From: an uncultured Erysipelotrichaceae bacterium | GTDB lineage: Bacteria > Bacillota_I > Bacilli_A > RF39 > UBA660 | Length of the DNA stretch: 45,702 nt | Direction: 5' to 3' | Assembly (NCBI GenBank): GCA_948444795.1 | Contig: CAOJUX010000007.1 | Span: forward strand, 1 to 45,702 | Shown: positions 8,595-25,131 of the stretch, piece after piece | Layout of the letters: each line of letters starts with the position of its first letter | Position numbering within the stretch: position 1 is the stretch's first letter | The notes under the pieces: model-generated | Database searches by the model: none | Told to the model about the DNA's origin: nothing | What the model saw: only the letters and a program-made list of their open reading frames with translations | Program-made: the position numbers and the translations under genes

Positions 8595-8623
8595 TTGAAT
8601 TATGAATAATAGTGGGTTATAAT
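8595..8623 (+). promoter_or_regulatory. Promoter of the G-tract surface-protein gene
   Basis: TTGAAT (8595-8600) and TATAAT (8618-8623) are spaced exactly 17 bases apart, about 27 bases before the start codon. Confidence 0.7.
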
Positions 8624-8649
8624 AGTGATAGAAAATAGGAGGAAGAAAA

Positions 8650-9817
8650 ATGAAAAAATTTGAAAAGAATAAAAAACTAAAATACACCCTCCTAAGCGTA
8701 ATAGCCCTAGTCCTAGTACTGGGGGGGGGGTATTTTAGTATATAGAAGTTTTGCATTATTTGAGGTAAGTAAAACATTTAATATACTAGAAGGAAAAGTA
8801 CCAAACTTTACCAAAGGAGATATAACTTTAGCAGTACTTGTAGATGGAGTAAAACAAGAAGAGTTTCCAGATAAAAATGGTCATAGATATGTAGGATATG
8901 ATTGTAATAACGATGCAACAGTAGATGTAACATATGATAGGGAAATATCAAAATGGAAGGTTAATCTATCAACTACTGATCCCACAATATGTACTTTAAA
9001 ATTTGAAAGTTATACAAGTAGAAATTTAATAGAAGTTTTAAAAGAGACAAATGAATTAGTAAAATTCACCCATGAAGATACAGAACAAACAGGAAGTAAT
9101 ACCAATATAGATTATAGATATACAGGAAAAGATCCTAATAACTATGTTTTATTTAATGATGAGTTATGGCGAATAATAGGAATATATAATACAGATGATG
9201 GAACTGGTAAATATGAGGAAAGAGTTAAATTAATTTCTCAAAACTTAGTAACTCATCAAGGATGGACAACCGATAACAAGAATGATTGGAGTAATGCATC
9301 GCTTCAAAAATACTTAAATGGCGAATATTATAATACTTTAAATGATTCTGCTAAGAAAATGATAGGAAATGCAAAATGGTATCTAGGAGGTTTTGATGGT
9401 TACTCAATAATTCCTAAAGAAATATATGAAGTAGAGAGAAGTAATAATGTATATGGCACTAATACTAAAAACTTGATTGTAAAGATGGGCTTACCCTATG
9501 GTAGTGATTATGGTTTTGCTATTAATGATAATACTTGTTTAAATTCTAATATGCATGATTGGCATGGCAATAATTATTGTGCACTTAATAATTGGATGAT
9601 GCAAGTTTCGAACAGTTTGTGGACTATCACTCAAAATACGAGTTGTAATTATTCAGTTTTGGCTTTAATTGAAAGAGAAGCAGGATTATTTTATTTTTGT
9701 GATAACTCTAGTGTTTATCACTATGCAGTATATCCCACATTATATCTTAGTCCTGATACCATAGAAGTAGATGGATCTGGAACAAAAGATAATCCATATA
9801 TATTATCGCTAGAATAG
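8650..9817 (+). CDS. Surface protein gene with ten-G tract, currently out of frame (candidate phase-OFF)
   Basis: A strong promoter and AGGAGG ribosome site lead to MKKFEKNKKLKYTLLSVIAL, a signal/anchor segment. At 8721-8730 ten consecutive G shift the frame and translation stops a few codons later. With nine G the frame continues unbroken to 9817, giving about 388 residues: LVYRSFALFEVSKTFNI, then GDITLAVLVDG, then a domain with ELWRIIGIYN and MIGNAKWYLGG, ending GSGTKDNPYIL. The intact remainder argues against ordinary decay. This layout is common in exported proteins of gut Bacillota; function is unknown, probably surface exposed. The piece from ATG 9359 alone is only the C-terminal part. 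Confidence 0.75.
8721..8730 (+). repeat. Homopolymeric G10 tract (OFF)
   Basis: Ten G in an otherwise very AT-rich gene, placed at the end of the membrane segment. Nine (or 6, 12) G restore the frame; ten or eleven lead to stops within a few codons. Confidence 0.9.
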
Positions 9818-9876
9818 AAAATCCAATCAAAAAAGAAGCATATTCATTTTGAATATACTACTTTATCAATAGTATG

Positions 9877-9908
9877 AAAGAAATTATTTAGATTAATTTC
9901 TTTTTTTG
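9877..9908 (+). terminator. Terminator after the surface-protein gene
   Basis: AAAGAAATTA (9877-9886) pairs with TAATTTCTTT (9894-9903), followed by TTTT. It lies between convergent genes. Confidence 0.7.
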
Positions 9909-9909
9909 A

Positions 9910-10296
9910 CTAAAAAGTTTTTTCAGAATAACTATGACTATAATTTATTTTATCATTAAATTCTACATAATTTAAATAAATCATTCTTATCAAGTACCAT
10001 TTACCAGTAGAAGGATCACTAAGAATTAAATGATCCCTTCCAGCTTCTTCAATAATGCCATCATAAATTTTATCACGCCACTCTACTGAATCGGGATAGG
10101 AAACATAAGCCTTAACTTCTTTGCCTTTATTTAGCCTTAAAATATTTTCAATATAGCTTTGTTCTCCATCATTATATGGATCGTAACTAATATTTCCAGG
10201 TGGACTAATTACTTCATTAGGCTTTGATTGAACTCCAACTAAATTGTTATCAGTTGCACCAGGAAAAGTTGGGCTTTGATAAAAACTTCCATTCAT
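9910..10296 (-). CDS. gerQ: Spore coat protein GerQ family
   Basis: GerQ is a spore coat protein needed for proper germination and cross-linked by the coat transglutaminase in Bacillus. The 128-residue protein has a Pro/Asn-rich N-terminus and the conserved domain from residue 45: EQSYIENILRLNKGKEVKAY, then GIIEEAGRDHLILSDP and the YLIRMIYLNYVEF ending. AGAGGTGAT seven bases upstream supports the ATG. It is divergent from yitT. With spo0A and a sigH-like gene in the same window it supports a sporulation heritage; whether spores are made cannot be told from here. Confidence 0.85.
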   Translation of the reverse strand: MNGSFYQSPTFPGATDNNLVGVQSKPNEVISPPGNISYDPYNDGEQSYIENILRLNKGKEVKAYVSYPDSVEWRDKIYDGIIEEAGRDHLILSDPSTGKWYLIRMIYLNYVEFNDKINYSHSYSEKTF

Positions 10297-10354
10297 AAAA
10301 TTATCACCTCTATAGATAATATGAATATATCTTTAAAATTATTAAAAAATCAGT

Positions 10355-24309: not shown

Positions 24310-25131
24310 ATGAAAAAAGGGACGTTAAAGAAAAAAAGAAAAATGTTAAAACTAAAAAGATATGCGCTTAGCTTTTTATTAGGTACATGTATTGTTGCGC
24401 AAGCATCTATAAAAAACAATAACTCTAATATAAGTTATGCATTAGATGTGTCTAAAAGTACCGAAAATCCTTCCTGGGGGGGGGGTAGCCTTACCATAGA
24501 TAAAAAAGGTAAAGAACTAGCACAATATTATAAAGAATATATAGAATTTAATAAAAATTATAATATTAAAGATGAAATAGACGAAGTTCAAAACTTAACT
24601 GCTGGAATAAGTAGAGAACAACTATTAGATTTAGTATATGAAAGAGAACCAGATTATGGGTTCCCTTGTAGTCTTGATTTACAAAAACATATCAGAAATA
24701 TAGCTGATAAATATGAAGTCCCTTTTGAAGTAATAATGATTCTTTTAGATCAAGAGTCAAATGGTCATTGGAAAGATAATGGTAAAATATCTCCAACAAA
24801 TGATTATGGACTTGCCCAAATACATTACACAGTATTGCCGCTTGTCCAAAAAGGAACTGGACTAACCAAAGAGCAAATTTTAAATGACCCTTATGCAGCA
24901 GCAGAAGCTTGTGCGTATATTGTTAAATATACATGGGGCTTTCTAGGATATGACTTAAATAATTTTCATTATTTAAATACATTTGGTTCATATTGTGCTT
25001 GGATAGATTGGCAAAAAAGCCCAGAAGCTAGAATTTACGCCGATAGTTGTATTAAAAGACTAAAAGAGCATTTTTGGCTTACTGATGAACAAGTTAATGA
25101 TCCAAAACTTTATAGAAGTTATACAAAATAG
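24310..25131 (+). CDS. Secreted SLT-type lytic transglycosylase with in-frame G10 tract (candidate phase-ON)
   Basis: Predicted to cleave glycan strands of peptidoglycan, forming anhydromuropeptides. It has a basic N-terminus and signal segment (about 18-33, ALSFLLGTCIVAQAS), a low-complexity stretch with W56-G-G-G coded by ten G (24476-24485), then an SLT-like domain (about 120-260) with catalytic E149 in LLDQESNG and YGLAQIHY (the usual GLMQI). GAGGGGG supports ATG 24310, not 24280. Loss or gain of one G would stop translation near residue 60, before the enzyme domain, so expression may vary between cells. Confidence 0.82.
   Translation: MKKGTLKKKRKMLKLKRYALSFLLGTCIVAQASIKNNNSNISYALDVSKSTENPSWGGGSLTIDKKGKELAQYYKEYIEFNKNYNIKDEIDEVQNLTAGISREQLLDLVYEREPDYGFPCSLDLQKHIRNIADKYEVPFEVIMILLDQESNGHWKDNGKISPTNDYGLAQIHYTVLPLVQKGTGLTKEQILNDPYAAAEACAYIVKYTWGFLGYDLNNFHYLNTFGSYCAWIDWQKSPEARIYADSCIKRLKEHFWLTDEQVNDPKLYRSYTK
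24476..24485 (+). repeat. Homopolymeric G10 tract (ON)
   Basis: Ten G inside the coding region after the signal sequence. With ten, the frame is open; with eleven a TAG follows at once, with nine a TAG follows four codons later. Confidence 0.9.

Follow-up and report, generated by a model that had tools for sequence, protein, structure and literature searches.

A run of ten G interrupts a candidate surface-protein gene of an uncultured Erysipelotrichaceae bacterium, and the question raised by this locus is whether the run is an error of assembly, the scar of a decaying gene, or a switch. The window, i.e., the whole stretch of DNA analysed, comprises 45,702 nucleotides. An initial annotation of it had proposed phase variation with the gene in its OFF state, and we compared the locus with its paralogues, with the remainder of its genome, and with related genomes.

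The interrupted gene in the window

The window has a GC content of 25.7%, and its G runs have lengths of one to five, followed by two runs of ten; none of six to nine were present. The first run of ten occupied exactly the position given in the initial annotation, and the surrounding features were as follows.

8595–8623, + strand: sigma-70-type promoter, TTGAAT and TATAAT with a spacing of 17 (consensus scan, 10/12 matches)
8637–8642, + strand: Shine-Dalgarno (SD) sequence AGGAGG, 7 nt 5′ of the ATG (sequence)
8650–8745, + strand: leader open reading frame (ORF) as read at G10, out of frame, with 24 leader codons, three Gly codons and TAG at 8743–8745 (translation)
8677–8738, + strand: predicted RNA hairpin (fold; synonymous-codon randomisation of 67 leaders; cross-species structures and covariation)
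8721–8730, + strand: G10 tract, the candidate switch, in frame at G9 (sequence; homologue comparison)
8732–9817, + strand: ON-frame body, 361 codons plus stop (translation; domain matches)

The strong promoter and the good ribosome site claimed for this gene were both recovered, the latter ahead of the ATG at 8650, and sequence similar to the promoter also preceded the other copies of the leader cassette. In the G10 state, translation from this ATG shifts out of frame after 24 codons and gives the peptide MKKFEKNKKLKYTLLSVIALVLVLGGGYFSI followed by a stop. Beyond the tract, 361 codons can be read without interruption, starting at 8732 and ending at the stop at 9815–9817. Leader and body fuse at G9 or G12 and not at G10, in agreement with the approximately 360 codons previously said to open with nine G.

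The ON-frame body consists, in order, of the end of a transmembrane (TM) segment, a shared domain (FEVSKTFNILEGKVPNF..CTLKFES) and a DUF6273-like C-terminal domain. The match to DUF6273 (PF19789) scored 21.9 bits, below the Pfam gathering cut-off of 23.5, and indicated remote similarity only. No relative of the product was found in the PDB by sequence, and its AlphaFold model had a mean pLDDT of 34.5. The gene belongs to a family of membrane-anchored proteins with a variable C-terminal part, which are probably surface-exposed, judging from the N-terminal TM segment. Adjoining the tract gene, on the − strand (9910–10296), a match to the spore coat protein GerQ (PF09671) was found, so the lineage may sporulate.

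The second run of ten, which the initial annotation had missed together with the family context, lay in a different gene.

24310–25131, + strand: secreted SLT-domain (transglycosylase-like) protein gene (sequence, domain match)
24476–24485, + strand: second G10 tract, in the in-frame (ON) state (sequence; within the SLT-domain gene)

Tracts across the genome and the genus

The window belongs to a short-read metagenome-assembled genome (MAG) of 1.46 Mb (81% complete, 5.8% contamination), and all tract lengths given here are MAG consensus values, with one assembled length per locus and one genome per species. This genome held 32 runs of at least eight G, of which 25 were exactly G10, compared to 0.036 runs of at least ten G expected per 1.46 Mb under a first-order model. 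The G10 tracts are not due to chance, as had been argued for the single run. The tract family, including the window gene, had 26 matches in the genome, and 17 of these had a 5′ cassette in common, made up of promoter, SD sequence, short leader, hairpin, and G tract, and began with identical residues 3′ of the tract. L040, at G9, was the only one of the 17 in frame; the other 16 were G10 copies and out of frame.

Paralogues lacking the tract (L165, L167, and L168 in the window genome; L180, L186, L190, and L209 in relatives) were continuous through the equivalent point, with IGGITLYRTFALYE where gated copies have LGGGILVYRSFALFE. Since they read straight through, the G9 reading corresponds to a real protein rather than to an accidentally open frame. 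Among 70 distinct cassette copies whose body is intact, all ten G9 copies were in frame, and five G8, 51 G10, and three G11 copies were out of frame; one further G10 copy, with a different register, was in frame (51 of 52 G10 copies OFF). With the tract at a multiple of three, 66 of the 70 would be in frame. The OFF copies had a median body of 371 aa, and their leader frame reached a stop no more than five codons past the tract, usually after three or four. This held in every species checked: homologues carried the tract at several lengths, G9 cassette copies were in frame, nearly all G8, G10, and G11 copies were out of frame, and the frames were otherwise intact except for a few truncated copies. 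Paralogues with intact long bodies, all OFF except L040, gave dN/dS values of 0.36–0.58, and the out-of-frame bodies are, judged from these comparisons, under purifying selection. Intact bodies under such selection argue against decay.

Tracts also occurred in other settings in the window genome. The SLT gene of the window, an acyltransferase gene (L044), a kinase-like gene (L051), and L049 were in frame at G10, and a TPR-repeat gene (L034), a GNKR-motif gene (L035), and L041 were at G9 and out of frame. Five tracts lay between −35-like and −10-like hexamers (L031, L033:5900, L045, L052, and L057), as did eight in relatives (L205, L247, L250, L252, L258, and L260–L262). These promoter-spacer tracts were G9 or G10, mostly G10, with spacers of about 15–20, as in promoter-spacing phase variation. 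That of L057:3059 (G000:C42), a G10, lay directly 3′ of mutS and ahead of genes of unknown function. One G10 tract (L036; 3141, − strand), close to a contig end, stood just 5′ of an ATG, with a ACCTCCGA/TTCGG hairpin 5′ of the tract; because only five bases separate it from the ATG, the tract itself may serve as Shine-Dalgarno sequence.

Some individual loci deviated from the common arrangement. One of the 16 G10 family copies (L054, G000:C28, near 2932, − strand) had unrelated upstream sequence right up to the tract, possibly because recombination took place there or because the contig is chimeric. Another gated copy (L037, G000:C3) had a stop 53 codons past the tract and is possibly a decayed member. 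Elsewhere in the genome (L124, G000:C5), a reverse transcriptase gene (8989–10002) was found between near-repeats (8660–8743 and 10228–10311; 87% identical) whose differences fall mainly where one copy has A; the arrangement looks like a diversity-generating retroelement, and no obvious target ORF was seen among the frames listed. Tracts near contig ends were commoner than expected in the window genome (8 vs. 1.1), as a repeated leader would lead one to expect, and individual lengths in this genome therefore need confirmation.

Tracts of at least nine G were present in 22 of 22 genomes of the genus, as was the tract gene family; genomes outside the genus had mostly few or none. Exact lengths summed over the genus were 70 G9, 383 G10, and 29 G11. 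The leaders were of two types. In type A, the tract lies inside the TM segment; type B is a short N-terminal piece (..NLPTS..RLGGG..) ahead of a TM protein, and its cassette was also joined to other membrane proteins (L265, L267, and L276). A second gated family, with another leader (MTKMCL plus G10), was found in genome G002 (L241, L225, L230, L233, L242, and L243), and family search identified one member, which contained PARCEL/DUF285 repeats. This PARCEL-repeat (DUF285) surface family of G002 had the same register and was out of frame at G10.

Cassette-type tracts in eight genomes comprised seven G8, 15 G9, 92 G10, and two G11, a count that leaves out one promoter-spacer match. Lengths were also mixed within single genomes, with six G8, two G9, and 12 G10 in G014, and six G9, 16 G10, and one G11 in G003. 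The slippery run was about 80% G10, yet G8, G9, and G11 copies occurred. At the end of one contig (L259, G018:C10), 48 consecutive G probably represent a sequencing artefact. The cassette pattern CTCCYAAC..G9 had no match in 395 genomes of the class, a sample without other members of the genus; the leaders of the window's own species have CTCCTAAG and escape this pattern too. Viral contigs gave no match to the cassette with two patterns.

The hairpin and the explanations of the tract

When cassette leaders were folded, the G tract paired back with an upstream CCTCC(C/T), closing an inner stem directly adjacent to the tract. In the window copy, the predicted hairpin is composed of the 5′ arm CTAAAATACACCCTCC, the inner stem CCCTAG../..TACTGGG, and a 3′ arm formed by the G tract and TATTTTAG. 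The codon CTC represented approximately 1% of the Leu codons in window genes but was nearly fixed at the hairpin site. The mean folding energy of 67 leaders was −24.0 kcal/mol, compared to −11.4 kcal/mol for synonymous recoding with genome codon usage, and 59 of the 67 were more stable than all 100 randomisations, although these are not 67 independent tests because many leaders are closely related. The inner stems varied by species yet kept pairing (CCATTG/CAATGG, CCAGAA/TTCTGG, and CATGAAAAAC/GTTTTTATG). All four inner pairs showed changes on both sides, with a covariation of 0.237 vs. 0.146 after shuffling (0 of 500 as high), and the structure scored above every slid version. Prediction and conservation together point to a tract-including hairpin that is conserved in two leader types through compensatory changes. 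The idea that all tracts in ORFs have the hairpin was rejected, since those outside the cassette showed no consistent excess stability. In the PARCEL family, the hairpin did not form in the two leaders folded.

Register, recurrence, and selection taken together, we consider it likely that the G10 tract acts as the switch in a system of poly-G phase variation that extends over a genus of uncultured gut Bacilli, with switching presumably taking place within a population. Slipped-strand mispairing during replication would add or remove a G, and lengths would settle around G10, so that a gene's usual state would follow from its register. In the large surface-protein families, which need G9, most members would be OFF and a minority ON, whereas several enzyme genes, which read through at G10, would be ON most of the time. 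Any one cell would then present a few of its many surface proteins, drawn at random. On the transcribed tract, the hairpin could favour −1 slippage of RNA polymerase or mask the SD-like G run; it could also affect slippage of the DNA. If −1 slippage by RNA polymerase is favoured, "OFF" may be leaky. The phase variation proposed initially was thus upheld by register, length variation, and selection on the bodies, and its OFF state has to be qualified, being perhaps not fully off given the hairpin and the sharp G10 mode.

Some findings count against phase variation or against its plain version. Mismatch repair looked intact, with one MutS match and two MutL matches, and slippage rates would consequently be lower; Neisseria, for its part, switches despite having mismatch repair. 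For the same matches, loss of mismatch repair was rejected as the cause of the many tracts. The dominance of a single length (G10) was sharper than in Campylobacter, and switching by replication slippage alone would not require a conserved hairpin. A two-level device is a tentative extension that we regard as rather doubtful: replication slippage would set the heritable G9/G10 state, and −1 transcriptional slippage at the stem-loop would give faint "OFF" expression, in a portable module fused to several surface-protein families across the genus. A cell would then show strong expression of one or two surface proteins, with weak, noisy expression of all the others.

Programmed transcriptional slippage by itself, in which the DNA stays at G10, a stem-loop in the nascent RNA drops one G, and expression is constitutive, low, and unswitched, appeared improbable. 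It would account for a hairpin that both abuts and includes the tract and is conserved with compensatory changes, and for a useful frame at G9 where the commonest DNA length is G10. The −1 shift from G10 is also in the direction of the stem-loop slippage of a Roseiflexus insertion sequence (PMC5009743). In the same sense, G10 was usual in nearly all species and had a higher share among cassette tracts than among other tracts (84% vs. 69%, p = 0.012). Nevertheless, G8, G9, and G11 cassette copies stood beside G10 copies in the same genomes, the PARCEL family requires the same shift without the hairpin, and promoter-spacer tracts, which cannot use this mechanism, were mostly G10 too.

Still less credible was an attenuation-like control, in which translation of the leader, together with pairing of CCTCC to either the SD sequence or the G tract, would set translation or transcription and the frame would be secondary. 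In the window copy, the SD sequence plus the T at 8636 is a perfect 7-nt complement of CCTCCTA in the leader (8688–8694), and a longer fold favoured SD:CCTCC pairing over tract pairing. Complementarity of 5–7 nt was found in most copies, and CCTCC matched the SD sequence of its own genome a little more closely than that of other genomes (21 of 500 permutations did as well), which is only suggestive of co-variation. The leader of Streptococcus gallolyticus pil1 offers a precedent (PMC3894217). Against such control, the region 3′ of the hairpin had no U tract, usually four to five T in eight, and for this lack of U-richness the hairpin is also a weak candidate for an intrinsic terminator; moreover, the frame must matter, given that in the G10 state translation of the leader ends a few codons beyond the tract. 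An assembly artefact or decay, with wrong tract lengths or pseudogene copies, is highly unlikely, given that lengths and registers recurred in 22 independent assemblies and that the copies have intact bodies subject to purifying selection, even with an incomplete, partly contaminated short-read MAG, the tract excess at contig ends, and Illumina reads that can fail after G tracts (PMC9187656).

With phase variation as the preferred reading, an uncultured genus of gut Bacilli appears to gate much of its surface repertoire by one repeated, OFF-favouring cassette. As the tract lies inside a conserved RNA hairpin, control of homopolymer slippage by a structure in cis, in DNA or in RNA, can be tested directly. 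Annotation pipelines are liable to label such MAG genes as pseudogenes or truncated ORFs.

Comparison with known systems

The best-known cases of poly-G phase variation come from Campylobacter, Helicobacter, and Neisseria, and to our knowledge Bifidobacterium provides the one studied case in a gut commensal. For RF39 or Mollicutes-like gut bacteria, no paper on poly-G phase variation was found in the open literature, which does not prove that none exists. In the porA-type switch of Neisseria meningitidis, poly-G lies between −35 and −10; the five promoter-spacer loci of the window genome and the eight in relatives resemble it, and it is not the window gene's own mechanism.

The phasome of C. 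jejuni is similar in its AT-rich background, its approximately 30 G/C tracts in surface-related ORFs, and its slipped-strand frame switching at short tracts of 8–11 (PMC6321876, PMC4965091). In Campylobacter genomes, G9 accounts for 53% and G10 for 26% of tracts (PMC6321876), whereas the mode found here is G10, one base longer and sharper. C. jejuni also lacks mismatch repair (PMC4235727), in contrast to the MutS and MutL matches of the window genome, and here many tracts lie in one shared hairpin cassette before large paralogous families.

The sortase-pilus switch of Bifidobacterium breve likewise belongs to a gut commensal and has an intragenic G10/G11 near the start of a surface gene, with 93% G10 and 6.5% G9 at one pilus locus (PMC9187656). 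It involves two pilus operons and is not known to have a tract-including hairpin, unlike the genome-wide, hairpin-bearing family found here. In Roseiflexus IS630, an RNA stem-loop lies immediately 5′ of the slippery run and the −1 product is useful (Penno et al., 2015; PMC5009743); the run there is a T5C5 in a transposase gene, whereas here a G10 lies within the stem and slippage of RNA polymerase is only a candidate. S. gallolyticus pil1, from another member of the Bacilli, shares slipped leader repeats near a stem-loop, but its GCAGA repeats alter the length of the leader and act on a terminator, with no switch of frame (PMC3894217). Compared to these systems the principle is known, and what is new is the lineage, a portable cassette common to several surface families, a G10-centred register that favours OFF, and a hairpin that includes the tract.
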